This document shows, piece after piece, positions 4,506-41,221 of a stretch of 64,000 nt of DNA. The stretch's first letter is position 1; each line of letters begins with the position of its first letter. Source of the DNA: Cellulophaga sp. F20128 (lineage in GTDB: Bacteria > Bacteroidota > Bacteroidia > Flavobacteriales > Flavobacteriaceae); assembly GCF_023015805.1 (NCBI RefSeq), contig NZ_JALKBA010000001.1:248001-312000 (forward strand). The letters are read 5' to 3'. The position numbers and the translations under genes were made by a program. The notes beneath the pieces were generated by a model. The model did no database searches and had not been told where the DNA came from. It saw only the letters and a list, made by a program, of their open reading frames with translations.

Positions 4506-5924
4506 ATGACTCGGACTACAATGAGAAACAGTATTTTTATTTTATTACTATCGTTATTCCTTATATCCTGTACCCAAAAAGTTAAAAAACCCAATATTAT
4601 TTATGTTTTTGCTGATCAATGGCGGGCACAAGCAATGGGCTACGCTGGCAACCCAGATGTGAAAACGCCTAATTTTGACAAGCTTGCATCCGAAGGGATT
4701 TCGTTTACCAATGCCATTTCTACCAGCCCCGTATGTACACCCTATAGAGCTATGCTCTTAACTGGGCAATATATCTTGAAAAATGGGATGTTTATGAATG
4801 ATGTATCCCTAGACCCCGAAGCCAATAGTTTTGGTAAGCTCCTTAAAGAAGAGGGTTATACTACAGCCTATATTGGAAAATGGCATGTTGATGGCCAAGA
4901 CCGTTCAGCCTTTATTCCTAAGGAAAGGCGACAAGGTTTCGATTATTGGAAGGTATTAGCCTGCACGCATAGTTATAACAACTCTAATTATTGGGGCAAT
5001 GACGACAAATTGCATCAATGGGATGGTTATGATGCTAAAGCACAAACCGAAGATGCCATTGCCTATATTGAGGAGCAATCTAAAAGTGATACTCCTTTTA
5101 GTTTGATGCTCTCTTGGGGTCCACCGCATGCACCTTATAAAACGGCTCCTAAAGAATTCCAAGATTTATACGAAAATATGGATATACAGTTACGACCTAA
5201 TGTACCTGAAGAACTAGCCCAACAAACAAAAGAATCACTAAGAGGATACTACGCACATTGCTCTGCCCTAGATAGTTATATTAAGCAATTGCAAGATGCC
5301 ATTAAGCGTAGTAATATTGAAGACAATACTATTTTTGTTTTTACGTCAGACCACGGCGATATGATTAATAGTCAAGGCCAAATTAAGAAACAAAAAATCT
5401 ATGAAGAATCGGCCAAAGTTCCTTTTATCATTAAATATCCAAGGTTATTTGGAACAGCAGCAAAGAAGAGTGATTTCCTATTAAATACTTTGGATATACT
5501 TCCTACGCTATTAGGCATGTCTGGCTTAGCCATCCCTGATGATTTGGATGGAGAAGATATTACCGATATACTATTAGGTAAAAAAGCAGATACCAGAGAA
5601 GCTTCGCTTGTGGCTTGTGTACAACCTTTTGGACAATGGAATAGGAGCCGCGGCGGGCGGGAGTTTAGAGGGGTAATTACAAAAAAATATACCTACGCCA
5701 AAGGCTTATCAGGCGATTGGCTACTTTTTGATAATAGTACTGATCCTTATCAATTACACAACCTTACTGAAAACCCAGACTTTACATCAGTTGCGAAAGA
5801 TTTAGACCAATTGTTGAGTGCAGAACTCAACCGTTTGGATGATGAATTTTTGCCGGGCGCTGCCTATATAGAAAAATGGGGCTACAAGCTTGATGCTACC
5901 GAAACAGTGCCCTATATCAATTGA
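4506..5924 (+). CDS. Formylglycine-dependent sulfatase (family S1), lipoprotein
   Basis: An arylsulfatase-type enzyme that removes sulfate esters, probably from algal polysaccharides. It has a lipoprotein signal peptide ending in the lipobox LISC (about residue 22), so it should be anchored in an outer or inner membrane. The core has the FADQWR calcium-binding segment, the activation motif C-T-P-Y-R within CTPYRAMLLTG (the Cys is converted to formylglycine), YIGKWH, and the C-terminal TSDHGD motif. The length is normal for the family. Met6 (4521) gives a more typical lipoprotein start and is a good alternative. The gene stands alone; the substrate is inferred only from the general genome style. 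Confidence 0.93.
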   Translation: MTRTTMRNSIFILLLSLFLISCTQKVKKPNIIYVFADQWRAQAMGYAGNPDVKTPNFDKLASEGISFTNAISTSPVCTPYRAMLLTGQYILKNGMFMNDVSLDPEANSFGKLLKEEGYTTAYIGKWHVDGQDRSAFIPKERRQGFDYWKVLACTHSYNNSNYWGNDDKLHQWDGYDAKAQTEDAIAYIEEQSKSDTPFSLMLSWGPPHAPYKTAPKEFQDLYENMDIQLRPNVPEELAQQTKESLRGYYAHCSALDSYIKQLQDAIKRSNIEDNTIFVFTSDHGDMINSQGQIKKQKIYEESAKVPFIIKYPRLFGTAAKKSDFLLNTLDILPTLLGMSGLAIPDDLDGEDITDILLGKKADTREASLVACVQPFGQWNRSRGGREFRGVITKKYTYAKGLSGDWLLFDNSTDPYQLHNLTENPDFTSVAKDLDQLLSAELNRLDDEFLPGAAYIEKWGYKLDATETVPYIN

Positions 5925-5984
5925 TTTTTACTAAAAACAAAAGCGAACCTCTCACTATTAATTTGGTGCAAAGAACTAAAACAA

Positions 5985-6635
5985 ATGGAAGAAACAATTC
6001 GAATTTTTATTTACATCCATGCCTTTTTTGGTGGCCTTGGATTAATAATGGGCCTTGGAAGTATCATCGTAAAAAAGGGAAGTGTACCTCATAAAAAAAT
6101 GGGAAAATTATTTTCTATTGGTATGATTACAAGTTCACTTATTATCATACCCATTTCTTGGATGCCCAATCACGAGAATACCTTTCTTTTTCTTATTGGA
6201 TTATTCACCATTTATTTGGTGGTTTCTGGAAACCAAATATTGACCTTTAAGTCCAAAAAGATAAAACAAGCGAAACCCTTACATTGGATAACCTCCGGAA
6301 CAATGCTTCTACTTTCTACGATTATGGTTCTATACGGCGCTTATGGCTTGTTAAAAGGCAATACAGCCTATTTCCTTTTTATATTTTTTGGCGGTTTTGG
6401 ACTTTCATTGACCATTAGGGACTTTTTATTTTATAAGAAATTGAAGGTTACCAACAACAAATGGCTTGCAAATCATATTGGCAAAATGATTGGCGCTTTT
6501 ATAGCATCCGTTACAGCTTTTATTGTTGCCGGATTAGGAATAGGAAATCTTATGGCTTGGATTTTACCCTCTATACTTGGAACCATTTATATTGTGTATT
6601 GGAGAAGGAAATTAAAACCAAAAATAGCTGTCTAG
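5985..6635 (+). CDS. Multi-pass membrane protein, DUF2306-like
   Basis: A 216-residue integral membrane protein with about six or seven hydrophobic helices. The first helix carries IHAFFGG and the loop SVPHKKMGKLF, and a later loop has NHIGKM. Conserved His and Gly-Lys pairs of this sort occur in DUF2306-like proteins, whose function is unknown. The gene follows the sulfatase by 60 bases but shares no obvious function with it. The length and the pattern of helices make coding almost certain; the family assignment is tentative. Confidence 0.78.
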   Translation: MEETIRIFIYIHAFFGGLGLIMGLGSIIVKKGSVPHKKMGKLFSIGMITSSLIIIPISWMPNHENTFLFLIGLFTIYLVVSGNQILTFKSKKIKQAKPLHWITSGTMLLLSTIMVLYGAYGLLKGNTAYFLFIFFGGFGLSLTIRDFLFYKKLKVTNNKWLANHIGKMIGAFIASVTAFIVAGLGIGNLMAWILPSILGTIYIVYWRRKLKPKIAV

Positions 6636-6806
6636 TAATTGTTTTCCAAAGCTTGCACACCATCCCAAAAGGTCGGATGTTCTGTTGGTTTTTTTATCTT
6701 ATACCAAGGAACTAACCTAGTATAAATAGGTTGTTTGCGGTGTTAAATATGGCCTGATTTTTAAAATGTCATAATATTGACGCAACCATTAAACACCTTT
6801 CTTGCA

Positions 6807-6814
6807 TACATTTG
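6807..6814 (+). promoter_or_regulatory. Bacteroidota -7 element (TACATTTG)
   Basis: A perfect TAnnTTTG match 20 bases before the HTH-membrane regulator start. No good -33 TTTG is found at the expected spacing, so this is a moderate promoter call. Confidence 0.45.
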
Positions 6815-6834
6815 CTTAGATATAGCTCATAAAA

Positions 6835-7425
6835 ATGAAACAACTGAACCTTTCAGACCGCGCAAAGGAATTAAGGCTACAAAATGGGTTGTCCCAAGAA
6901 GTAGTAGCAGATGAATCTGGCTTAAGCTTAAGGACAATACAACGTATTGAAAACAACGAAACGGTACCCAGAGGCGATACATTGAATAGGTTAGCCAAAG
7001 CCCTTAATACTACCTCTGACCAGCTCATTGATAGTGTTGTTTTAGAAGACCTAAAATATAAAAATTTAATGTCTATATCGGTGCTCAGTTTTTTGTTTTT
7101 CCCTTTGCTAGGAATACTTATTCCTCTCCTCTTGTGGCGTTATAAAAAAAATAAAATCAAAGGAGTTCATGAATTGGGCAAGGCCATTCTAAATTTTGAA
7201 ATAACCTGGTCGCTTGTATTATTTCTATACTATTATTTTTTGTTTTCAGGTCTCTACTTTAAATATGTAGATTATTATATAGATAGCCCCTACTTTTTTA
7301 CAAAAACATTAATACCCGTTTTCATTATGTACGGTTATAACTTTATCATTGTAATTCTAAATATTTTTAAAGTTTCTAACGGTAAAACACACAAATACAT
7401 TCCAGCGATCAAGTTTCTAAAATAG
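6835..7425 (+). CDS. XRE-type HTH regulator with membrane domain (DUF4870-like)
   Basis: The N-terminal 65 residues are an XRE/Cro-like helix-turn-helix: RLQNGLSQEVVADESGLSLRTI is the HTH core, with the ERIENNE-like RIENNETVPRGDTL after it. The C-terminal part has about four hydrophobic helices and resembles the DUF4870 membrane domain. A DNA-binding head joined to membrane helices suggests a membrane-tethered regulator or sensor; targets are unknown. A -7 element lies just upstream. The protein is 196 residues and ends before a bidirectional terminator. Confidence 0.85.
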   Translation: MKQLNLSDRAKELRLQNGLSQEVVADESGLSLRTIQRIENNETVPRGDTLNRLAKALNTTSDQLIDSVVLEDLKYKNLMSISVLSFLFFPLLGILIPLLLWRYKKNKIKGVHELGKAILNFEITWSLVLFLYYYFLFSGLYFKYVDYYIDSPYFFTKTLIPVFIMYGYNFIIVILNIFKVSNGKTHKYIPAIKFLK

Positions 7426-7524
7426 GAGTTTAGGTAAAGAAACAGTCAAAGGATTTCACGCTCATTTAAAAATTTCACGATATTAACTATTTTCAGCCAT
7501 TATTACCCAGAACACTATAAAACG

Positions 7525-7556
7525 AAAACCCCAACCTACTATGGCTGGGGTTTTTT
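7525..7556. terminator. Bidirectional Rho-independent terminator
   Basis: A nine-base perfect stem (AAAACCCCA with TGGGGTTTT), plus two more C-G pairs after one mismatch, followed by a T run on the plus strand and preceded by an A run. It lies between two convergent genes, the HTH-membrane regulator and the PiT transporter, and can serve both. Confidence 0.85.
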
Positions 7557-7576
7557 CAATATTCATTCCTACGCTA

Positions 7577-9871
7577 TTACTCTGATATCGTCGCTGGAGG
7601 TATACTACTGTCATGTTCTTTGTAATACAACTCTAACATATTCATGGTAGCAGTCATTAAATCTTTAGTCTCTATCAATAAAGAGAAATAAAGGGTCGTA
7701 TTTTTAGGACTAGATTCTTCTGTTCTAGTTCGTTCTACCTGTTTCTGTATTTTTTCAGACAATAAAGCAAACAAATCGTCTTTTTCATTGATAAGAACCC
7801 CTATTTTTTCAATAGCACGAGAATCAAAAGCAATCTGAGTTTCGCTTAAAATATGATCTAACTTATAGTTAATCTCTTTTAACTCTTTTATTTGATTGTA
7901 TTTTAATTTTTTGTGGTTATTGTTAATATGCTTGTATGATATTTTAGTAATATACTCCAAGGACTGGGCCATATCTTGTAAATATCCTAAAATATTGATA
8001 TAAAAATCACTTGCTCCTACGCTTGCGTCATCCAAGTTTTTTATAAAGTAAAAGATATGATCTCTTAAGTCATCAATTTCATCTGTAAGTTTAACAACTC
8101 CTTTTTTATTCTTTTTAAGAATATCCAAGTTCTGCTTTGCAAGACCGTCTATCGCATTTGTATAAATTTTGTTTGTTCTTTTAACAACATTAGAAGTGTT
8201 TTTAACACTCTCAGCGATTACCCCTTGCACAGAACTGCTTTCTGCTCTTCGCAAGCTATCTTCTGCCTTAATCTCTTTCGATTTTTTATTGTATGAAATA
8301 TAGTTTCTAGCCAACAATAACACGGCAACAAATAATAAAATGGCAATTGCAGCCCCTGTTCCAAAATTAATTAAGGTTAAAATAATACCGGAAGCGGTAA
8401 AGGCTATGATAGCCGTACCAAACCATCCACCAATCACATTTAACACACCTGCTACTCTATACACTGCACTTTCTGCTCCCCAAGCCCTATCTGCCAAGGA
8501 AGTTCCCATAGCCACCATAAACGTCACATATGTGGTAGATAACGGCAACTTGTAAGAGGTAGCAATAGAAATTAGAATACCAGCAACCATTAAATTCACA
8601 GCCGCTCTAACCATATCAAAGGCTGGCATTTCATAGGTTTTATCCTTAGAAAGCGCTATGGTTTGTTTTTGAAATTTAGTTTCTATTTTATCAGATACCG
8701 ATTTAGGTAGTATGGTGTCGGTATACTGTGAAATTGCCATCCCTAATCTAACGATACTTCTAGATAAAAAATTAGGTTCAAATCGCTCTTTTCCTTCTCC
8801 TTCTCGTGATAAGTTTATTTCTGTTTCTGCAACATAGCGTGCCTTTTTAGAAAACCATAAGGTTGCCACCATAATCATACCAGATAAGAATAATAATAAA
8901 GTAGGCGTAGGCACTTTTTCAGAAAGAATTTCCATGCTAAACTCTGTAGCCAATTGACCCGAAGCTACCCACTCCATGTACGATTGATAAGCTGCAATAG
9001 GAACACCTATAAAGTTAACTAAATCATTACCTGCAAAGGCCAAGGCCAAGGCAAAGGTTCCAACCCCTATAATTAATTTGTAAATATTAACCTTTGCAAA
9101 AACAGTTAACAGATACGCAATTAATGACCAAAGTACAAAGTTAGCCAATACAATACCTAACCATTCTGTTTCCAAAAAGTCTTTAATGGTAAGTCCGCCT
9201 AAGAAAGTAAAGTGTTCACTCCCATAGGCTGTACCTTTTATCCCTTTCATAAAGATAAAATAGGTTATTGCTGATAAGGCTATACCACCAAACAAGGCGC
9301 CTACCCATCTTGCCTTCTTTTCAAAATCATAGGACAATAACAATCGAGACACCCACTGCACCAGAGCACCTATGGAAAATGCCACAACGACCGAGAGCAG
9401 GATTCCCAATATAATTTCAGTGGCTTTAGAAGTATTGATATAATTCACCAGTTCTGAAAAACTACCCCCAGCATTTAATATTTTAATTAAAGCCATAGCT
9501 ACCGCCGCTCCTAACAATTCAAAAACAATAGACACCGTTGTAGAAGTTGGCATCCCAAGCGTATTAAAAAAATCGAGCAGCAATATGTCGGTAATCATTA
9601 CAGCCATAAAAATGAACATAATTTCATTGAAGTAGAATTCCCCAGGATTAAAAATTCCCTTTCGGGCAACTTCCATCATACCACTTGAAAATATGGCTCC
9701 CAGCGCTATACCAACACTGGCTACTATCATGATTGTTCTAAAAGAAATCGCTTTAGAACCTATTGCAGAATTTAAAAAATTAACAGCATCATTACTAACA
9801 CCAACTACAAGGTCTGCCACAGCTAGCACAGCTAAGGCAATAATCATTATAAGGTAAATATTACTCTCCAT
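7577..9871 (-). CDS. PiT family inorganic phosphate transporter with PhoU-like C-terminal extension
   Basis: A low-affinity phosphate transporter of the PiT family (cation- or proton-coupled, inner membrane). Both signature repeats are visible: VGVSNDAVNFLNSAIG near the N-terminus and AFAGNDLVNFIGVP near residue 280. There are about ten to twelve hydrophobic helices up to roughly residue 520. The last 240 residues are soluble, helical and rich in charge, resembling a PhoU-type domain fused to the transporter. At 764 residues the protein is much longer than enterobacterial PitA (about 500). It follows the porin gene by 71 bases and probably shares its transcript, so phosphate passes the outer and then the inner membrane. 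Confidence 0.93.
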   Translation of the reverse strand: MESNIYLIMIIALAVLAVADLVVGVSNDAVNFLNSAIGSKAISFRTIMIVASVGIALGAIFSSGMMEVARKGIFNPGEFYFNEIMFIFMAVMITDILLLDFFNTLGMPTSTTVSIVFELLGAAVAMALIKILNAGGSFSELVNYINTSKATEIILGILLSVVVAFSIGALVQWVSRLLLSYDFEKKARWVGALFGGIALSAITYFIFMKGIKGTAYGSEHFTFLGGLTIKDFLETEWLGIVLANFVLWSLIAYLLTVFAKVNIYKLIIGVGTFALALAFAGNDLVNFIGVPIAAYQSYMEWVASGQLATEFSMEILSEKVPTPTLLLFLSGMIMVATLWFSKKARYVAETEINLSREGEGKERFEPNFLSRSIVRLGMAISQYTDTILPKSVSDKIETKFQKQTIALSKDKTYEMPAFDMVRAAVNLMVAGILISIATSYKLPLSTTYVTFMVAMGTSLADRAWGAESAVYRVAGVLNVIGGWFGTAIIAFTASGIILTLINFGTGAAIAILLFVAVLLLARNYISYNKKSKEIKAEDSLRRAESSSVQGVIAESVKNTSNVVKRTNKIYTNAIDGLAKQNLDILKKNKKGVVKLTDEIDDLRDHIFYFIKNLDDASVGASDFYINILGYLQDMAQSLEYITKISYKHINNNHKKLKYNQIKELKEINYKLDHILSETQIAFDSRAIEKIGVLINEKDDLFALLSEKIQKQVERTRTEESSPKNTTLYFSLLIETKDLMTATMNMLELYYKEHDSSIPPATISE

Positions 9872-31523: not shown

Positions 31524-32786
31524 CTACTTACTTATGGATTCCCGTAAGGCTAACCCAATAGCTTTGGCTAGCAATGGCGGTACGGCATTGCCAATTTGCA
31601 TCATTTGTTTGCCCTTGGCTCCTTTAAAAATAAAATCATCTGGAAAAGATTGCAATCGCGCCATTTCCCGAACCGTAATTACCCTTGGTTCAATAGGATG
31701 AATATTAACACCACCATGATTTTCTTTTATGGTACAACTCGCCTCATTCCAAACGCATTTTTTCCAAGAGTCAGAATAATTATCATACAAACTTTTGCCT
31801 TCTGGCACTTTGGCCAAACGTTTTTTCATATCCTCCCTATGCTTGGTTCTAACGTGATTAAAGGCAGCATTATCTTTCAGCTGTACCAAATCGTGTATCG
31901 CCTCTTTGGTGGTGATATAATGCTCTGGAGACAATAATGGTTTGGGGTGCTTGTTCTTTTTTCCGATTCTATTGGCAACAAAAATGATACGTTCTCTTTT
32001 TTGGGGTACATAATAGTCTGCTGCATTTAAAACCGTCACATTAACCACATACCCAAGTTTTGCGATGTCCTCTTTAATTTTATCCTCAACCTTACCTTGC
32101 AGCATGGAACGCAAACCTTTTACATTTTCGGCAACAATAAATTCGGGTTGTAACTCTTCAATAATTTGAAGCATATCCTTGTATAGAGAATTGCGCTCGT
32201 CCTCTACCATTCTACTTCCAGACATGCTAAAACCCTGACAAGGAAAGCCTCCAGACAAAACTGTTAATGGCTTGCCATTGAGTCCGCTTTTAACTGCAGA
32301 AATAAAGGCATCTTTTACGTCTCTTTGGGTAATATCGCCTTCTATATGGGGATGGTTAAAATTTTCTCGGTAGGTCAGCCCGGCTTCTTTAAACCAATCC
32401 AGCCCTCCAACTTGCTGAAATCCAGCCATCTCAAAACCCTTAGCCATTCCTCCTGCTCCGCAAAACAAATCGGCTGCAGTAAGTGCTGTTTTTGATGGAT
32501 TATCCCAATTTTTAGAAATATCTGCCCAGTTAATGACATCGGTCTTGGTGGATTTTGTTGGGATTTGCTGTTTGTAATTTTCGGCTTTTTGTTCAAAAAT
32601 ATGGGAATCTAAAAACTTTGCTAACACCTCTGGCTGAATAAAATGCACGCCCCCAGTTTTATGAGATTCCAATACCCCAGCATGAATAGCCCTACGAACA
32701 GACTTCTGTGAGACATTATGTTGTTTCGCAACATCTTCAATTCGCAATAACGCTTCTTTTCTTTTCATCCTTTCCTTACGCTCCAA
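31524..32786 (-). CDS. Orphan cytosine-C5 DNA methyltransferase with N-terminal HTH
   Basis: A DNA (cytosine-5) methyltransferase that would place methyl groups on a short target sequence. Motif I (DLFCGAGGMAKGFE), motif IV with the catalytic Cys (GGFPCQGFS), motif VI (AENVKG), motif VIII (QKRERI) and motif X (QIGNAVPPLLAKAIG) are present in order, so it looks active. The first 75 residues form an extra winged-helix or excisionase-like HTH (RIEDVAKQHNVSQKSVRRAI). No restriction enzyme is adjacent, so it is an orphan enzyme. It begins 13 bases after the metallophosphoesterase stop and shares its transcript. The target site cannot be read from the sequence. Confidence 0.93.
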   Translation of the reverse strand: MERKERMKRKEALLRIEDVAKQHNVSQKSVRRAIHAGVLESHKTGGVHFIQPEVLAKFLDSHIFEQKAENYKQQIPTKSTKTDVINWADISKNWDNPSKTALTAADLFCGAGGMAKGFEMAGFQQVGGLDWFKEAGLTYRENFNHPHIEGDITQRDVKDAFISAVKSGLNGKPLTVLSGGFPCQGFSMSGSRMVEDERNSLYKDMLQIIEELQPEFIVAENVKGLRSMLQGKVEDKIKEDIAKLGYVVNVTVLNAADYYVPQKRERIIFVANRIGKKNKHPKPLLSPEHYITTKEAIHDLVQLKDNAAFNHVRTKHREDMKKRLAKVPEGKSLYDNYSDSWKKCVWNEASCTIKENHGGVNIHPIEPRVITVREMARLQSFPDDFIFKGAKGKQMMQIGNAVPPLLAKAIGLALRESISK

Positions 32787-32799
32787 ATTCTAGTCTTTA

Positions 32800-33699
32800 T
32801 TATTTTGATTGCTGGTAATCTGCCAACTTTTGTGGACCTTCTAACAAAACACGAACTACCCTTAAGGTACCGTCTTCTGTAGTTGCAATTTGCCATTTTA
32901 TCAATGAAATAGATCCATTTTCAATTTCTATCCCCGTTATACTTCTAGGGTGCACACAACTGCCATCATTAAAAAAGGGAATAGCTCCTGGCTCTGGAAA
33001 ACGAGGTCTATGTGTATGCCCAGCAATCGTAATTTTTTGATCGTTTTGCAGTATCCATTTTTTTATCCGTTTTTCTACTTTTATCAGTTCCTTATGATTT
33101 TTAGCGGGACTCGTAGGATCTGCAATGCCCCATACTTGAAGTGGTTTCCAGAGTATGCGCACTAGAAATCTACCCAAACGCCAAAACGTATAGTTCCACC
33201 AATCTGCCTGATGACCATGCGTTAAAAACAATTCTTGCTGCGTTTCTCTATGCTGTAATACAATTCCCTCTTGATAGGTAATACCCACCAATAACTCTTT
33301 ATCCTCACCATCTATAGGCTCAAAATAGCTCGATAAATTTTTCTGTACATACACTGGGTCTTTGTAGACCATATCATGATTGCCCCAAATCATGTGCAAT
33401 CTATTTTGCAAATGAAATTGACGCAGAAGTCCATACACATTTTTATGAGCAGTAAAAATAGGTTCAAATGAAGTGTTTTCCCATAGCTCATCCCCATCCC
33501 CTAATTCAAAATAACTAAACCCTTCGTTGTAATAATGCTTTAGCGCATGGAAATAGATGTTTCTGTTATTGGCAAAATCATCTGCAAAACTATTATCCCC
33601 CCGATGACAATCACTAAACAGGATAAACTTTGAGGTATCATCAAAAGGCACAACTTTGGCATTTTTATAAGCTCTGGCTAACCTTGAAAAAGATGACAT
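32800..33699 (-). CDS. Calcineurin-like metallophosphoesterase
   Basis: A two-metal phosphoesterase with the full set of motifs: FSDCHRGDN (D-x-H), GDGDELW (GDxxE/D), WGNHD and GHTHRPRF. The distance between motifs and the length of about 300 residues fit bacterial enzymes acting on nucleotides, phospholipids or similar phosphate esters; the substrate is unknown. A longer open frame starts at 33753, but the MSSFSRLARAYKNAK start is used here because it begins the conserved part. It is the first gene of a two-gene unit with the orphan methyltransferase. Confidence 0.88.
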   Translation of the reverse strand: MSSFSRLARAYKNAKVVPFDDTSKFILFSDCHRGDNSFADDFANNRNIYFHALKHYYNEGFSYFELGDGDELWENTSFEPIFTAHKNVYGLLRQFHLQNRLHMIWGNHDMVYKDPVYVQKNLSSYFEPIDGEDKELLVGITYQEGIVLQHRETQQELFLTHGHQADWWNYTFWRLGRFLVRILWKPLQVWGIADPTSPAKNHKELIKVEKRIKKWILQNDQKITIAGHTHRPRFPEPGAIPFFNDGSCVHPRSITGIEIENGSISLIKWQIATTEDGTLRVVRVLLEGPQKLADYQQSK

Positions 33700-33810
33700 A
33701 AATTTAATTTTGCATAAATATCTAAAAAAGCTAGCAATAGTCACAAGGCTCACCCTAAAATATCTTTTTCTTTTTGTAATTTTACCACACTTAGCTAGAC
33801 TAATGAATAT

Positions 33811-36186
33811 ATGGACTTAGAAAATGAAATAGAGCTGCCCTTAAAGAGTCTTATTAGTTTTGACAAATTGTTAAAACAATATGATAAAATGGCTGTTGGT
33901 GATGATGAATTCTTGGCTCAAAAAGCTCAATTTATTTTAAATTATCAAAAACCATTTCCCGAATTACGTGATGGTTTTACAGACCTTACGCTACTAAATA
34001 CTCATAAAAAAGCCATTACAATAATATTACAAGATGTATTCGCTGAAGTCTTAACAAAAAACGAGATTAAAACAGCTTCATTACCTTATACCAATGTATT
34101 TTTTAATACATCTAGCAGGCTTCAACAAATTATTAAAGATGCGGGGAATAACTTTGATCTAAAAATCAAAAATATTGAAGACAAGTTAAATTATATTACG
34201 GCTTGTACAGTAATTTTAAACGTTCATTACGGTTTTAATCTTGATTTTTCACGGCCTTTATTTTATGAAATTCCTGATTTAAATGGAGTACTTAGGCATT
34301 ATAGAATTTTATATAATGCCGATTTTATTGATATCTTACCCAATGAAAATGCTAAAAATCTCACTCAGGAAGATGTAGATGAGCTCCTAAATAATATTAA
34401 TAATTTAGAATTGTGGAAAGAAAAAATTCCACCCAACAGTTTTACCTGCAAAGGGTTTGTGGTCTCCAATATGTTTGATGTTACCGCAGAACATTCCATT
34501 TCTGAAATAAAATCGAACCTTATTTCCAACGATAAAAAAGACAATACTTTTTTTAAAGAAGATTTTCAAAACACCTTTAAGTCGCTCTTTGGTTTGCCCA
34601 ACTTAAAAGTAGGCTTCTCTGCGCACAACAGTAAGGATAATACTTTTGAAAGAGTACATGGCGTAGGTATTGAAAGTTTCATCTTAAACCAAAGCGAGAA
34701 AGTAGATTGTAAAACTGCCCTTTGTCAACATTCCTATCTAACCATATTACAGGATCATTCTTATTATGTGATTTCTGATATCGATAAATATTTTAAACAG
34801 GCACCAGACAATGCCTTGTACAAAACACTGAGTGATCAGGGTATAAAAAGTGCAATTATAGCGCCTTTATCTAACGGTGACGAATTGCTTGGGGTTTTAG
34901 AATTAGCTTCTACAAAGAAAGGCAATTTAAATAACGTAAATGCCCAAAAACTAGAAGACGTGATGCCGTTTATAGTAACGGCCGTATTGCGCTCCAAAAC
35001 AGAAGAAGAAAACTTAATTGAAGCTGTGATACAACAAGAGTGCACCTCTGTGCACCCTTCCGTACGCTGGGCCTTTGAAAAAGAAGCCATCCGTTTTATC
35101 GGGGAAAAAAATCTAGGCTTAGACCCCAACTTTAAGGAAATTGTTTTTAACAATGTACATCCACTATATGGTCAAATAGATATTAAAGACTCTTCTACCT
35201 TTAGAAACGAATCGATTCAGAAAGATTTATTAATTCAATTATCTGAAATTAACACCATTCTAACCAAGGCTTGGGAAAACGTTAAATTACCTGTATTTGA
35301 GGAATTGATGTACAGCGTACATAGCTATATCAAGGAAGTTAAAGATATTTTAAACACCAATACAGAGCAAATCATATTTAATTTTGTTAAGAAAGATATT
35401 GCTCCCATTTTTGAGCATTTAAAAAATACAGAAGAAGGGGAATTTATTGATTTAATTGCCAAGTACGAAGCATCTATTGATCCTAAAACGGGTTCTTATT
35501 ACGATCACAGAAAAAACTATGACGAAAGTGTCATGAAAATCAATGAAAAATTGGCATCTGTACTCGATAAAAAACAAGCGGAAGCCCAAGAAATGTTTCC
35601 TCATTATTTTGAGCGTTACAAGACCGATGGTATTGAGCACAACATGTATATTGGCGCACCTATTTCACACAACAAACCATACAACTCTTTATACTTAAAA
35701 AACCTAAGATTGTGGCAATTGCAAGCCATGTATGACATGGAGAATGAGTATTACAATCTTAAACCTAAATTACCAATTAAATTAGATGTAGCTTCGTTAC
35801 TATTGGTATACAACACCTCACTTTCTATTCGCTTTCGATTGGATGAAAAACGTTTTGATGTTGATGGCACCTACAATGCCAGGTATGAGGTTATCAAAAA
35901 AAGAATAGATAAATCCTTTATTAAGGGAACCAATGAAAGACTAACACAAAAAGGAAAATTAGCTATTGTATATTCACAAAAAAAGGATGAATTAGAGTAT
36001 TTGCGTTATATAAAGTTCTTGCGATCCAAAGGTTATTTTACCAAGAATATTGAAGTATTAGAACTAGAAGGCTTACAAGGTGTGGCGGGCTTAAAAGCGA
36101 TCCGTGTAGAGATTTTATACAAAAAGGACAAGACGTCTGGAAAAACGTATACCTATGACGATCTTATGCAAGAGTTAAAACAATAA
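33811..36186 (+). CDS. GAF domain-containing protein of unknown function
   Basis: A 791-residue soluble protein without signal peptide. A GAF-type ligand-binding domain is recognisable at about residues 270-400 (KSAIIAPLSNGDELLGVLELAS is its characteristic end). The long helical regions before and after match no family I know. There is no histidine kinase, cyclase or output domain in sight, so it may be a sensor or scaffold. It is divergent from the metallophosphoesterase and convergent with the HD-PycTM gene. Single-gene transcription is likely. Confidence 0.85.
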   Translation: MDLENEIELPLKSLISFDKLLKQYDKMAVGDDEFLAQKAQFILNYQKPFPELRDGFTDLTLLNTHKKAITIILQDVFAEVLTKNEIKTASLPYTNVFFNTSSRLQQIIKDAGNNFDLKIKNIEDKLNYITACTVILNVHYGFNLDFSRPLFYEIPDLNGVLRHYRILYNADFIDILPNENAKNLTQEDVDELLNNINNLELWKEKIPPNSFTCKGFVVSNMFDVTAEHSISEIKSNLISNDKKDNTFFKEDFQNTFKSLFGLPNLKVGFSAHNSKDNTFERVHGVGIESFILNQSEKVDCKTALCQHSYLTILQDHSYYVISDIDKYFKQAPDNALYKTLSDQGIKSAIIAPLSNGDELLGVLELASTKKGNLNNVNAQKLEDVMPFIVTAVLRSKTEEENLIEAVIQQECTSVHPSVRWAFEKEAIRFIGEKNLGLDPNFKEIVFNNVHPLYGQIDIKDSSTFRNESIQKDLLIQLSEINTILTKAWENVKLPVFEELMYSVHSYIKEVKDILNTNTEQIIFNFVKKDIAPIFEHLKNTEEGEFIDLIAKYEASIDPKTGSYYDHRKNYDESVMKINEKLASVLDKKQAEAQEMFPHYFERYKTDGIEHNMYIGAPISHNKPYNSLYLKNLRLWQLQAMYDMENEYYNLKPKLPIKLDVASLLLVYNTSLSIRFRLDEKRFDVDGTYNARYEVIKKRIDKSFIKGTNERLTQKGKLAIVYSQKKDELEYLRYIKFLRSKGYFTKNIEVLELEGLQGVAGLKAIRVEILYKKDKTSGKTYTYDDLMQELKQ

Positions 36187-36244: not shown

Positions 36245-37453
36245 TTATAAAATCACAGCTGCTCTAGGACCATAAAAGTGTAACGATAAGAAAAAGGCAA
36301 GTACAGAAATTATCATCCCTACCATAAAAACAGCATAAGTCCAACGTAACAATTTATATTTTCGATCTAACACAAGGCCTAAAAAGTATAGATCTTTTGT
36401 GAGAGATGAATATACATAAGCCTGATCTTTAATAAGTTCCTTCATGGCCCATTCATAATCTTCTAACTTCATTTTATGAAAGTTTCCAAAGAACAAAAGG
36501 TTTACTTTTTTCTTTTTTACATCTTCTTTTGTAAATTCTCCACTTGTAATATTGGGCCTTGTAGCAATAATGGACAACACCATTGATATTACACTAAAAA
36601 ACATAAATAGTGCAGTGGGTAAAATTAAATATTTATTGGAAGGGTTATCCAACTTAGGCATTAAGTCGGCTAGCACTAAAGAGATTATAATAGCATTTAC
36701 TGACAATAAAATATTGGCCTTAGTATCCGCTATATCACTCAGCTTTAAATGATTTCGCATAGTAACCCTATACATGGTCTGCACACCTCTTTCTGGGCTT
36801 TTGTCTTTAAATTCTGTTTTGTATTGCGCTTTCACCTTCTCTTTCTTGGCTACCTTCTTCATTTTCTTTCTGGCCTTGATTAGCCTCCCTAGGTTATCAT
36901 CTTTCGTTTCTTGCCAGTTTTCTATAGCGTAATCTGTATAAAACCGGTGTTCTGTTTGAAACATTTTAATATTGGCATCCCTCCACTCTGCCGCCGAGTA
37001 ATTTGCGACACCCAACAATGACAATTCTTCACGAAGCATCTCTGCTGTTTCTAAATAGCTATCTTTTCCCAAATGCGAAGCATCCGCATCTCTCAAAATC
37101 TCTTCAGAACGGTTGGTTGGTTCATGCTCCCTTTTTGTTGCCATAATTAAGGAACGAATAGCAGCTATGCGTTCTTCGTCAATGGATTTACTTCTTAAAA
37201 ACGCTTCCGCTAGCTTACAACTCTCTTCCTCATGGTTGGTAGCACTAACCGTATAACCAATATCATGCAACCATGCAGTTAACAGTAAGTCTTCTGCTGC
37301 TTTTGCGTCTAACCCATAAAAATCTAATAATTCTTGTGTACTTTTGACAACGCGTTGGGTGTGCCTAATATTATGGTATAGAAAATTTGAATCTAACTCG
37401 TTGGTTAGCAGACTAATTACATAATTCTCGGTTTCTATTATAATATCTGCCAT
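36245..37453 (-). CDS. HD phosphohydrolase fused to a Pycsar-effector (PycTM) membrane module
   Basis: A 402-residue two-part protein. Residues 1-185 are an HD phosphohydrolase; the metal ligands look complete: His31, the His63-Asp64 pair in WLHDIG, a further His (74 or 110) and Asp124 in RDADASHLG. A basic linker follows (RKKMKKVAKKEK). Residues 227-402 match the Pycsar effector membrane domain (PycTM, formerly DUF5706): RNHLKLSDIADTKANILLSV, two central helices, and another helix near the C-terminus. In Pycsar systems such effectors respond to cCMP or cUMP and damage the inner membrane. No cyclase gene is next to it. The start at MADIII is preferred; a frame from 37474 is open. Confidence 0.9.
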   Translation of the reverse strand: MADIIIETENYVISLLTNELDSNFLYHNIRHTQRVVKSTQELLDFYGLDAKAAEDLLLTAWLHDIGYTVSATNHEEESCKLAEAFLRSKSIDEERIAAIRSLIMATKREHEPTNRSEEILRDADASHLGKDSYLETAEMLREELSLLGVANYSAAEWRDANIKMFQTEHRFYTDYAIENWQETKDDNLGRLIKARKKMKKVAKKEKVKAQYKTEFKDKSPERGVQTMYRVTMRNHLKLSDIADTKANILLSVNAIIISLVLADLMPKLDNPSNKYLILPTALFMFFSVISMVLSIIATRPNITSGEFTKEDVKKKKVNLLFFGNFHKMKLEDYEWAMKELIKDQAYVYSSLTKDLYFLGLVLDRKYKLLRWTYAVFMVGMIISVLAFFLSLHFYGPRAAVIL

Positions 37454-37498
37454 AGTTTTATTGCTAAAATGCATTACAAATTACAAATTTTAATCTTT

Positions 37499-40400
37499 AT
37501 GAATACTTCTGTTAGAAAATATTGTTTGTCGCTAAGTATTTTAATCCTTACGAATTGCGCTACTCAAAAAGCAAAATACGCTCCAGGAACTCAAAGAATA
37601 GATGTATCGGAATCCAAAGAAATAGCGCATACCTTTTACCTTATTGGCGATGCTGGCTTATCTCCCATAGGAGACTTAAACCCGGTCTTAAAATCGTTTA
37701 AAAAAAGAATTGCTAAAGCGGATAAAAACAGCACAGTTCTATTTTTAGGAGATAATATCTATCCTGCCGGTTTGCCAGACCCTAAAGATTCTACTGCGGC
37801 CTATTTAAAAGCAAAAAGTCATTTAGATGCCCAATTAAACACTTTGAAAAACTACAAAGGTAAACCACTCTTTATTCCGGGAAATCACGACTGGTATACC
37901 GAAGGTTTGGTGGGACTAGAAAGAGAACAAACCTATATTCAGGAACAATTAAACAGTAAAGAAGTCTTTTTCCCTGAAGATGGTTGCCCGCTAGAAACTA
38001 TTGAGGTTAATGAAAATCTTATCGTGATAGCTATTGACACTGAATGGTATCTTACCAATTGGAATAAACGCCCCGATATCAATGACAAGTGCGACATAAA
38101 AAGCAGAGAGAAATTTTTGTTAGAATTGGAAAGTATAATTTCTAAAAACCGACAAAAAACAACTGTGATTGCATTGCATCACCCCATGTTTACGTATGGG
38201 CAACACGGCGGACAGTTTTCTTTTAGAAAACATTTTTACCCACAAGGAAATGTAGGCCCCTTACCCATTTTAGGAACGCTTATAAATACCTTGAGAAAAA
38301 CAGCCGGACCATCTAATGCCGATCTAGACAACAAAAGATATCGCCAATTAAAAAACCGTATTGTTACCCTAGCTCAATATTCTAACAAGGTTGTTTTTGT
38401 ATCCGGACACGAGCATTCATTGCAATACATCGTTGAAGAAAACACCCCACAAATAGTAAGTGGTGCCGGAGCAAAAGCCGGAGAAACAAGACTCTTAAAT
38501 GGCAGTATGTTTTCTACCGGAGAAAAAGGTTATGCTACCCTTGAAGTGTACACCGATGGCTCTTCTAGAGTACGTTTTTATGGTTTAGACAATAATAAAG
38601 ATGAAAAATTCTTATTCACATCAGAAGTATTACCCGCAGACAAAAAACTTTTCAATAAAAAACTACCCGACACTTTCCCTGCCACCACAACAGCCTCTAT
38701 TTATACAGCTATGGAAACAGATAAAAGTGGCTTTCATAAATTTATTTGGGGAGAACGTTACCGCAAGTATTACAGCACGGCGGTTACCGTTCCCACCCTT
38801 GATTTAGACACTATTTATGGCGGCCTAACCCCTGTGAGAATGGGTGGCGGACACCAATCAAAATCATTGCGCCTTGCCGATAAAAATGGCAAAGAATACG
38901 TGATGCGATCTATGCGCAAAAGCGCAGAGTTATACCTGCAATCCATGGCATTTAAGGACCAATATATTGTAGGTGATTTTAAAAATACGGCTACAGAAAA
39001 CATTTTATTGGATTTCTATACTGGCTCACATCCTTATGGTCCATTTGCCATTGGCACTTTGTCTGATGCCGTTGAAATTTACCACACCAACCCTGAGCTA
39101 TACTATATTCCCAAGCAAAAAGCATTGGAAGATTTTAATTTGAATTTTGGCGATGAACTCTACATGCTCGAAGAACATGCGGGAGACAACCACGGAAACC
39201 TTAAAAGTTTTGGTTATGCCAATGAACTTAAAAGCACAGACAGCATGCTTGAAGACTTACGTGATGACGAAAAGTATGCTGTAGATGATACCATGTATTT
39301 AAGAGCGCGCCTTTTTGATATGGTATTGGGCGATTGGGATCGGCATACAGACCAATGGCGTTGGGCAGAAACCAAAGACAAGAACGGCAAAAAAATTATT
39401 TACAAACCTGTCCCTAGAGATCGAGACCAAGTATTTTCTATCATGAATGATGGTTTATTGATGGGCTTAGCCACCAGAATTGTACCGTCACTGCGACTAA
39501 TGGAAGGATTTAACAAAGAGATTAGAAGCGTTCGCGGATTTAACTCATCCCCAAAAACCTACGCCCTTGATATGGCTCTACTCACCGAAACTACAGAAGA
39601 CCAATGGGTAAAGCAAGCCGAATTTATAAAAGCCAAGCTAACGGAATCTGTGATAGACGAGGCTTTTAAAGCTTTCCCTCAAGAAATTCAAGACGAAACC
39701 CTAGGTACCCTAAAGAATGTTTTGTTAGCACGCACAGCTGCCATTACAGAAACCGCACTTGAATATTATAGAGTGTTAAACAAATTTGCAGTAGTTACAG
39801 GAACAGATAAAGACGATTGGTTTGAAATTAATTATCTGAATCCGAGTGAAACAGAGCTAAAAGTATTTAGAAACATAAAAGGCAAAAAAGAAAAGCTGTT
39901 TTTTAGTAAAGTATTTAACCGCAATACCACCAAAGAAATATGGATTTACGGATTAGATGATGATGATTATTTTGAAGATTTTGGTACAGCCAACAGTGGT
40001 ATAAAGATTCGACTTATTGGCGGACAGAACAATGATATTTACAATATAACGAACGGTAAAAAAATAACTATTTACGATTATAAATCAAAAAAGAACACAT
40101 TTAAAGCAACCAATAAAGCGAGAATAAAGCGTACAAATGATTACAGCACCAACATATACAATCCATTAAATGTACGTAACAGCGTAAATCAAGTTATACC
40201 AACCATAGGTTTTAACCCTGATGATGGTATAAAAATTGGTTTTACCAATACCTATACCTTTAATGGATTTAGACAAAATCCGTTTACAGAAAAACACAGC
40301 TTAAAGGCTTCGTATTATTTTGCAACAAGTGGATTTGACCTTCAGTATACTGGAGAATTCGCAGCCATTTTTGGGCAATGGAATTTTGAGCTGGATGGCA

Positions 40401-41221
40401 GATTTACCAGTCCCAATTTCAGTATAAATTCTTTTGGTTTGGGCAATGAGACCATCAACCAAGATGATGATTTAGGAATGGACTACAATAGGGTTAAACT
40501 TGAGCAACTAAAAATTGCACCTTCTCTTGTTTGGCGCGGACAATTGGGTGCTGTATTTAAAACAGGGCTTGCGCTAGAAACTATTGAAGTTGAAGAAACT
40601 GAAAACCGTTTTATCAATACATTTTATGTCGCCAATAATGAGGATGTACGTAAAACCTTTTTAGGTATTACTGCCAACTACACCTATGAAAACAAAGACA
40701 ATGCTGCTTTTCCTACTATGGGGATGGCCACTAGCTTAGAAACCGGCTATAAAGCTACGGTAGATGGCAGCAACCAAAATTTTGGATATATTATTCCAAG
40801 CATTTCGTTCGATTATAAATTAATCCCCAACGGCCAATTGGTATTGGCCAGTAAATGGAAAGCACATTTTAATATTGGTGAAGGCTATGAGTTTTATCAA
40901 GGGGCAAGTATTGGCGGCATAGATGGCTTACGAGGCTACCGAAACCAACGGTTTACAGGGAAAACATCATATTACCAAAATACGGATTTACGCTACAGTC
41001 TTTCTAAAATAAAAACAAGACTATTGCCCATCTCTTTAGGGTTTTATTCTGGCTTTGACTACGGTCGGGTTTGGTTACCAACCGAAGATTCTAACCACTG
41101 GAAAACCTCTTACGGCGGTGGATTCTTTCTAAACGGCGCAGACTTAATCTCTGCGACCCTGGCTGTATTTCACGCCGATGAAGGCCCACGAGTAACATTT
41201 GGACTGGGCTTTGGGTTTTAA
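37499..41221 (+). CDS. Metallophosphoesterase, kinase-like segment and outer-membrane barrel fusion lipoprotein
   Basis: A 1240-residue envelope protein. The signal peptide ends in the lipobox LTNC. Residues 40-370 form a calcineurin-like phosphoesterase with all motifs: IGDAG (Asp51), GDN (Asp85), GNHD (129-131), HH (227-228) and GHEH (303-306). Residues 440-720 contain KEYVMRS, GDWDRHTDQ (611-619) and RDRDQ (640-644), resembling the Lys, Asp and metal-binding Asp arrangement of HipA or Fam20-like kinases. The C-terminal 350 residues (from about 890) are a BamA/TamA-type beta-barrel with GGIDGLRGYRNQRF and a final strand ending in F. The frame is also open from 37469, but the lipoprotein start is preferred. 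Confidence 0.88.
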   Translation: MNTSVRKYCLSLSILILTNCATQKAKYAPGTQRIDVSESKEIAHTFYLIGDAGLSPIGDLNPVLKSFKKRIAKADKNSTVLFLGDNIYPAGLPDPKDSTAAYLKAKSHLDAQLNTLKNYKGKPLFIPGNHDWYTEGLVGLEREQTYIQEQLNSKEVFFPEDGCPLETIEVNENLIVIAIDTEWYLTNWNKRPDINDKCDIKSREKFLLELESIISKNRQKTTVIALHHPMFTYGQHGGQFSFRKHFYPQGNVGPLPILGTLINTLRKTAGPSNADLDNKRYRQLKNRIVTLAQYSNKVVFVSGHEHSLQYIVEENTPQIVSGAGAKAGETRLLNGSMFSTGEKGYATLEVYTDGSSRVRFYGLDNNKDEKFLFTSEVLPADKKLFNKKLPDTFPATTTASIYTAMETDKSGFHKFIWGERYRKYYSTAVTVPTLDLDTIYGGLTPVRMGGGHQSKSLRLADKNGKEYVMRSMRKSAELYLQSMAFKDQYIVGDFKNTATENILLDFYTGSHPYGPFAIGTLSDAVEIYHTNPELYYIPKQKALEDFNLNFGDELYMLEEHAGDNHGNLKSFGYANELKSTDSMLEDLRDDEKYAVDDTMYLRARLFDMVLGDWDRHTDQWRWAETKDKNGKKIIYKPVPRDRDQVFSIMNDGLLMGLATRIVPSLRLMEGFNKEIRSVRGFNSSPKTYALDMALLTETTEDQWVKQAEFIKAKLTESVIDEAFKAFPQEIQDETLGTLKNVLLARTAAITETALEYYRVLNKFAVVTGTDKDDWFEINYLNPSETELKVFRNIKGKKEKLFFSKVFNRNTTKEIWIYGLDDDDYFEDFGTANSGIKIRLIGGQNNDIYNITNGKKITIYDYKSKKNTFKATNKARIKRTNDYSTNIYNPLNVRNSVNQVIPTIGFNPDDGIKIGFTNTYTFNGFRQNPFTEKHSLKASYYFATSGFDLQYTGEFAAIFGQWNFELDGRFTSPNFSINSFGLGNETINQDDDLGMDYNRVKLEQLKIAPSLVWRGQLGAVFKTGLALETIEVEETENRFINTFYVANNEDVRKTFLGITANYTYENKDNAAFPTMGMATSLETGYKATVDGSNQNFGYIIPSISFDYKLIPNGQLVLASKWKAHFNIGEGYEFYQGASIGGIDGLRGYRNQRFTGKTSYYQNTDLRYSLSKIKTRLLPISLGFYSGFDYGRVWLPTEDSNHWKTSYGGGFFLNGADLISATLAVFHADEGPRVTFGLGFGF

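Follow-up and report, generated by a model that had tools for sequence, protein, structure and literature searches.

What kind of domain sits between a phosphatase-like domain and an outer-membrane barrel in a single bacterial lipoprotein? This question is raised by a gene at positions 37499..41221 (+) of a 64,000-nucleotide window from the genome of Cellulophaga sp. F20128 (contig NZ_JALKBA010000001.1, positions 248,001 to 312,000; coordinates of this gene and its neighbours are those of the window). The gene is present as a single copy in the 4.17 Mb genome of this marine flavobacterium, and its uninterrupted translation of 1240 amino acids (1250 if an alternative in-frame ATG at 37469 is used) comprises a metallophosphoesterase (MPE), a kinase-like domain, a beta-rich segment and an Omp85 barrel. 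The original prediction, made from the sequence of the window, had described one lipoprotein of this layout, with a middle segment reminiscent of HipA or Fam20-type kinases, and the layout is borne out by the translation, a lipobox Cys20, domain matches and the predicted fold (AlphaFold2 (AF2) model of residues 43-1240: pLDDT 85.0, pTM 0.83). We propose that the middle segment represents a new family of the protein-kinase-like (PKL) superfamily, and that it is probably an active phosphotransferase working outside the cytoplasm at the outer membrane, with the phosphatase, where that domain is present, acting in the opposite sense.

The kinase-like domain (38702..39784, +; residues ~402-762) has no Pfam or NCBIfam model, and single-sequence searches of Pfam, NCBIfam and the PDB with the middle segment returned no match. 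An AF2 run on residues 377-819, using an alignment of 73 sequences, gave a confident model (pLDDT 88.8, pTM 0.88), and a Foldseek comparison of this model with the PDB listed 50 matches, all of them kinase-like. The first is CtkA (3akl; E 1.6e-4, probability 1.00), followed by PI4KIIalpha (4hnd) and Rio2 (4gyi), both at E 2.5e-4, and then by STK33. HipT and the Fam20-type Golgi casein kinase (4kqa; E 4.6e-3, rank 18) are also among the 50 matches listed, and SelO is not. The predicted fold is thus kinase-like and not an unrelated one, as the original prediction had supposed. The elements of the model follow the canonical order: a glycine-rich loop, a strand (466-471) carrying R470, a helix (498-509) carrying D505, a strand (553-559) carrying E558, a helix (597-610), the GDWDRHTDQ motif, two strands, and PRDRDQ straight after the second of these. 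CtkA is also the top match in a profile search of PDB sequences, at an E-value of 0.2 that is weak taken alone. Here DmligDWDRHedqWrW...PiPrDRD is aligned with DTLLGNFDRHNGNWGFL...PIFDCG, and the catalytic-loop signature at residues 607-620 is aligned by hmmsearch with CtkA DTLLGNFDRHNGNW.

This placement is further supported by residue conservation, which we followed in a close set of 79 aligned full-length orthologues and a wide set of 67 phylum-wide homologues with identities down to ~24%. The glycine-rich loop GGLTPVRMGGGHQ (38819..38857, +; residues 441-453) lies ahead of strand beta2, and its G441, G442, G449, G450 and Q453 are found in 79/79 orthologues and in 62-65 of the 67 distant homologues. 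Strand beta3, EYVMRS with R470, and the K474 that follows it (38894..38920, +) offer candidate ATP-phosphate contacts; both basic residues are present throughout the close set and each in 64/67 homologues. The loop glycines and glutamine (GG..GGxQ), R470/K474 and D505 are invariant and correctly positioned in the model, and either of the two basic residues may be the one that contacts ATP. In the near-invariant catalytic-loop signature DMVLGDWDRHTDQW (39317..39358, +; residues 607-620), D614 is a candidate catalytic Asp, and Q619, which is replaced by Asn in one homologue (L059), appears to occupy the usual metal-binding Asn position. The DFG-like PRDRDQ (39413..39430, +; residues 639-644) directly follows strand beta8 of the model and is aligned beside CtkA PIFDCG. 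Its D641 (64/67) and D643 (63/67) are candidate metal ligands, and D641 could replace or accompany D643 as the metal-binding Asp. The predicted model shows the two-lobed kinase fold, and the candidate catalytic Asp, metal-binding position and DFG-type Asp are conserved and line up with CtkA.

Across the close set, R470, K474, D505, E558, GDWDRHxDQ and DRD are invariant. The near-invariant positions of the wide set are the Gly-loop residues, R470, K474, D505, P512, E558, R604, D607, D612, W613, D614, R615, H616, Q619, W620, P639, D641 and D643. Since D612, D614, D641, D643, R470 and K474 are invariant or near-invariant in both sets, the motifs are not a product of chance. KEYVMRS (465-471), GDWDRHTDQ (611-619) and RDRDQ (640-644) are indeed where they had been reported, and Asp612, Asp614, Asp643 and Lys474 hold as proposed catalytic residues in 79/79 orthologues; Lys465 is not conserved, and we dropped it as the ATP-binding Lys in favor of R470 and K474 as the basic invariants. 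When ten active-site residues are taken as a set, all are intact in 59/67 homologues, a single position is changed in four (V or Q for E558, S for D614, N for Q619), and several positions are degraded in another four, all barrel-bearing (the first copy of L057, L063, L064 and L065). The degraded kinase-barrel copy of L057 (4452-7112) directly adjoins an intact one, an arrangement suggestive, at the level of sequence, of pseudokinase partners.

Comparisons with named kinase families set the segment apart. HipA (PF07804), the family first suggested, gives no Pfam match and an hhalign probability of 0.4% despite motifs in register. CotH (PF08757) was likewise rejected, at a probability of 7.4% (E 0.0048) with motifs again in register; one of 39 family members matches the Pfam CotH model, weakly (E 0.017). 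For Fam20-type kinases, the other suggestion, the fold match to 4kqa ranks low. Because the HipA and CotH comparisons are in register yet not significant, we file the segment, on its sequence and model, as a new PKL family distinct from HipA, CotH and Fam20.

The flanking domains are more readily recognized. The N-terminal MPE (37628..38632, +; residues 44-378) matches PF00149 over residues 46-244 (E 1.6e-6). All five purple acid phosphatase motifs (DXG, GDXXY, GNH[DE], XXXH and GHXH) are present, as GDAG, GDNIYP, GNHDW, ALHH and GHEH, and their ligand positions are kept in 78-79 of the 79 orthologues, in agreement with the description of this domain as complete. Purple acid phosphatases are also its best, though weak, PDB sequence matches, and GAP50 is its best listed fold match (E 4.3e-9). 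Because the five ligand motifs are those of purple acid phosphatases, we read the PF00149 domain from its sequence as phosphatase-like and not as a protease. The C-terminal end of the model forms 16 long strands (40184..41218, +). Omp85/ShlB models match this region weakly by sequence, and by fold it resembles the TamA barrel 4n74 (TM 0.77, target-normalised) and BamA 4k3c (E 2.3e-10). The Omp85 loop-6 motif LRGYR (40928..40942, +; residues 1144-1148) has R1145 in 79/79 and G1146 in 77/79 orthologues. Strand count, fold matches and motif together uphold the BamA-like barrel of the original prediction. No POTRA domain is detected by Pfam or seen ahead of the barrel in the model; Omp85 members without N-terminal extensions have already been published. 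Between kinase-like domain and barrel lies a beta-rich linker (39785..40132, +; residues ~763-878) with GTDKDDW, GLDDDDYFE and GGQNND repeats and short strands in the model, which is also present in several barrel-less relatives. This Asp/Gly-rich strand segment resembles calcium-binding repeats.

The family is widespread. A homologue search places the kinase-like domain in 54/148 Bacteroidota genomes, and a profile search in 147/396 genomes (~37%) and 76/172 Bacteroidota genera. The 67 homologues comprise 42 MPE-kinase-barrel proteins, 17 kinase-barrel proteins and eight with the kinase-like domain alone, and the tree requires few changes of architecture, which argues that these architectures are old and stable. 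Because the phosphatase is absent from many members, the kinase-like domain, usually with a barrel, emerges as the common core. The self-contained phospho-switch is a conjecture for the present protein, and we reject it as a universal description of the family, in which the phosphatase is dispensable. In one genome (G084, L052) the three parts are encoded by consecutive genes, a kinase lipoprotein (5129-6685), an MPE lipoprotein (6702-7910) and an Omp85 barrel (7931-9094), which argues, from gene order, that they work together where they coexist. Each stand-alone relative inspected starts with a signal peptide, a lipobox or an N-terminal transmembrane (TM) helix, so the kinase-like domain would be extracytoplasmic. 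A cluster of three barrel-less kinase-like lipoprotein genes occurs at L060 (4129-9148; G101), one of them with Ser for D614. The family reaches gut commensals, since Parabacteroides distasonis has a kinase-barrel member (WP_005858089.1; L226, 7908-10367) on a record labelled plasmid; it is named 'hypothetical protein', as are the annotated public relatives that we saw. A scan of viral contigs and a phage search for relatives found none.

These observations suggest a working model. The N-terminal lipid and the Omp85 barrel would hold the kinase-like domain against the outer membrane on its periplasmic side, where it would transfer phosphate onto an envelope substrate, which may be protein, lipid or glycan; the fused purple-acid-phosphatase-like domain, where present, would take phosphate off the same or a related substrate class. 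The barrel would serve as anchor and possibly as an assembly or transport partner. Several points weigh against an active kinase. Its main difficulty is the known scarcity of periplasmic ATP; we know of no periplasmic ATP source, nor, to our knowledge, is any activity known for the kinase-like domain. The Foldseek TM-scores for CtkA are low (0.33 query, 0.49 target), and the segment is therefore a remote, divergent member of the kinase fold; the best sequence-profile match to a solved kinase reaches just the E-value of 0.2 given above, and the hhalign comparisons with HipA and CotH (0.4% and 7%) are insignificant. Arg replaces Lys in beta3, Gln replaces the usual metal-binding Asn, and the phosphatase is missing from 25/67 members.

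The strongest rival, which we regard as unlikely, retains the kinase fold and dispenses with phosphorylation: the domain would be a nucleotide- or ligand-binding gate, or a scaffold standing in for POTRA domains under the barrel. The protein does lack POTRA domains, the kinase-like domain precedes a barrel in 59/67 proteins, and both the scarcity of periplasmic ATP and the existence of degenerate copies fit a module that does not phosphorylate. However, purifying selection holds the full catalytic set in 59/67 homologues, and it is retained in barrel-less copies too, save two with one altered position each.

The genomic neighborhood bears on a possible pathway. The divergent neighbor (36245..37474, -) joins an HD phosphohydrolase and a two-TM PycTM domain in one protein (PF18967, E 1.3e-37; PF01966). 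It lies beside the kinase-like gene in 62/80 orthologous loci and is immediately divergent in 47. Among the 148 genomes, 54 carry the kinase-like domain, 56 carry PycTM and 47 carry both (Fisher p 7e-22, uncorrected for kinship); in 36 of these 47 the two genes are <=13 kb apart, against an expectation of <1% per genome. We considered a Pycsar defence role for this neighbor, for which the PADLOC match is confined to the TM part. The carriers usually have one PycTM match per genome, and since the gene is also widely conserved beside the kinase-like gene, it is probably not a plain Pycsar effector. Further along, a 791-aa GAF-like protein (33811..36186, +) is conserved in 52/80 loci and in distant families (L217-L219), and a second MPE with no obvious signal peptide (32800..33753, -; PF12850/PF00149) in 34/80. 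A reading of the sequence at 31524-32786 (-) suggests a protein resembling DNA cytosine methyltransferases, with a helix-turn-helix-like segment at its N-terminus. A CotH-family kinase gene of the same genome (246162-247124 in contig numbering) lies ~0.9 kb upstream of the window, which starts at 248001.

In other families the neighbor set includes PPK1, SixA, a beta-propeller-like protein with weak phytase similarity, the 791-aa GAF protein and CotH, and in several also a phosphate-selective-porin-like protein. PPK1 is found 3-16 kb from the kinase-like gene in 15 genomes. Several Bacteroidota families also keep HD-PycTM and PPK1 together as a pair (L217, 11582-14880; L218, 3033-6370; L225, 6267-10087), and in G035, G116 and G095 this pair sits away from the kinase-like gene. 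We tentatively entertain, as a broader reading that is somewhat doubtful, that the family constitutes phylum-wide periplasmic kinases, as yet absent from family databases, which would act at the inner side of the outer membrane on Omp85 barrels, often phosphatase-paired, and would communicate through the envelope with a signalling module of HD-PycTM and polyphosphate kinase in the cytoplasm.

The same neighbors could instead point to phosphate acquisition and storage, in which the phosphatase would free phosphate, the barrel admit solutes, the kinase-like domain handle a small phosphorylated molecule and PPK1 store polyphosphate. PPK1, SixA, the phosphate-selective-porin-like protein and the propeller favor such a scheme, but PPK1 lies on another contig in the source genome, and a scan of 80 close orthologous loci did not show it next to the gene. 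Moreover, solute porins are not known among Omp85 barrels, and the scheme comes without Pho regulon evidence. We hold it to be improbable.

Still less probable is a secretion or autotransport device of the sort suggested for PlpD, in which the Omp85 barrel would bring either a partner or the enzyme domains themselves to the surface of the cell. PlpD too joins an enzyme to an Omp85 barrel, and the idea was raised for the Omp85 'Metallo' subfamily (Heinz and Lithgow, 2014; PMC4104836). However, the present protein is without a POTRA domain and has an N-terminal lipid anchor: its lipoprotein signal peptide (37499..37558, +) ends at Cys20, which is kept in 79/79 aligned orthologues and followed by Ala-Thr, and no acidic surface-export-like signal was seen beside it in these orthologues. 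Kinase-like proteins without any barrel also exist. A spurious fold match, with the segment in truth an unrelated alpha/beta domain, is very improbable, for although the TM-scores are low and no sequence match to a solved kinase is significant, all 50 listed fold matches are kinase-like with probabilities up to 1.00, and both the canonical motif order and the independent CtkA profile match agree with them.

If the kinase is active, one must ask what is phosphorylated outside the cytoplasm, and from which donor, in a phylum prominent in the gut and in the sea; if it is also periplasmic, reversible phosphorylation would occur in a compartment thought to be without ATP-driven phosphorylation. The domain, though unrecognised by Pfam and NCBIfam, is carried by over a third of sampled Bacteroidota genomes, and HD-PycTM, PPK1, SixA and the GAF protein form a conserved gene set that offers a testable pathway. 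In the open literature that we searched, neither the kinase-like family nor its linkage to HD-PycTM and PPK1 turned up. That new families of kinase-like proteins come to light is in itself not unusual, as the Legionella pan-kinome survey (PMC9758233) shows; the passages of it that we consulted hold no sign of this one.

Enzyme-Omp85 fusions such as PlpD and 'Metallo' are known, and what is new is apparently the kinase-like domain. The 'Metallo' subfamily was recorded as PF00149-Omp85 fusions, with PF00149 called a metalloprotease, and was described as conserved at genus level only (Heinz and Lithgow, 2014; PMC4104836). With PF00149 and an Omp85 barrel in one chain, the present protein is of the same kind and belongs to it; our phosphatase-like reading corrects the published one of proteases, and the intervening kinase-like domain, unmentioned there, is here the common core and spans the phylum. 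PlpD likewise places an enzyme domain ahead of an Omp85 barrel, but it is a patatin lipase with one POTRA and without a kinase-like domain. Among kinases, CotH has IG(N)WDxY and IPxDxDNTFG-type motifs with which hhalign lines up the IGDWDRH and IPRDRDQAF of our segment, and CotH genes adjoin some kinase-barrel genes, although the profile probability is only 7%. PI4KIIalpha and Fam20-type kinases match in fold (4hnd, 4kqa), but are eukaryotic, have other architectures and show no detected sequence relationship. The first match by structure and by profile is CtkA, the Helicobacter pylori Ser/Thr kinase (PDB 3akj/3akl), whose NFDRHNGNW/PIFDCG align with DWDRHTDQW/PVPRDRD of the present protein; it differs in having no phosphatase, barrel or envelope anchor, and its identity in the structural alignment is ~12%.

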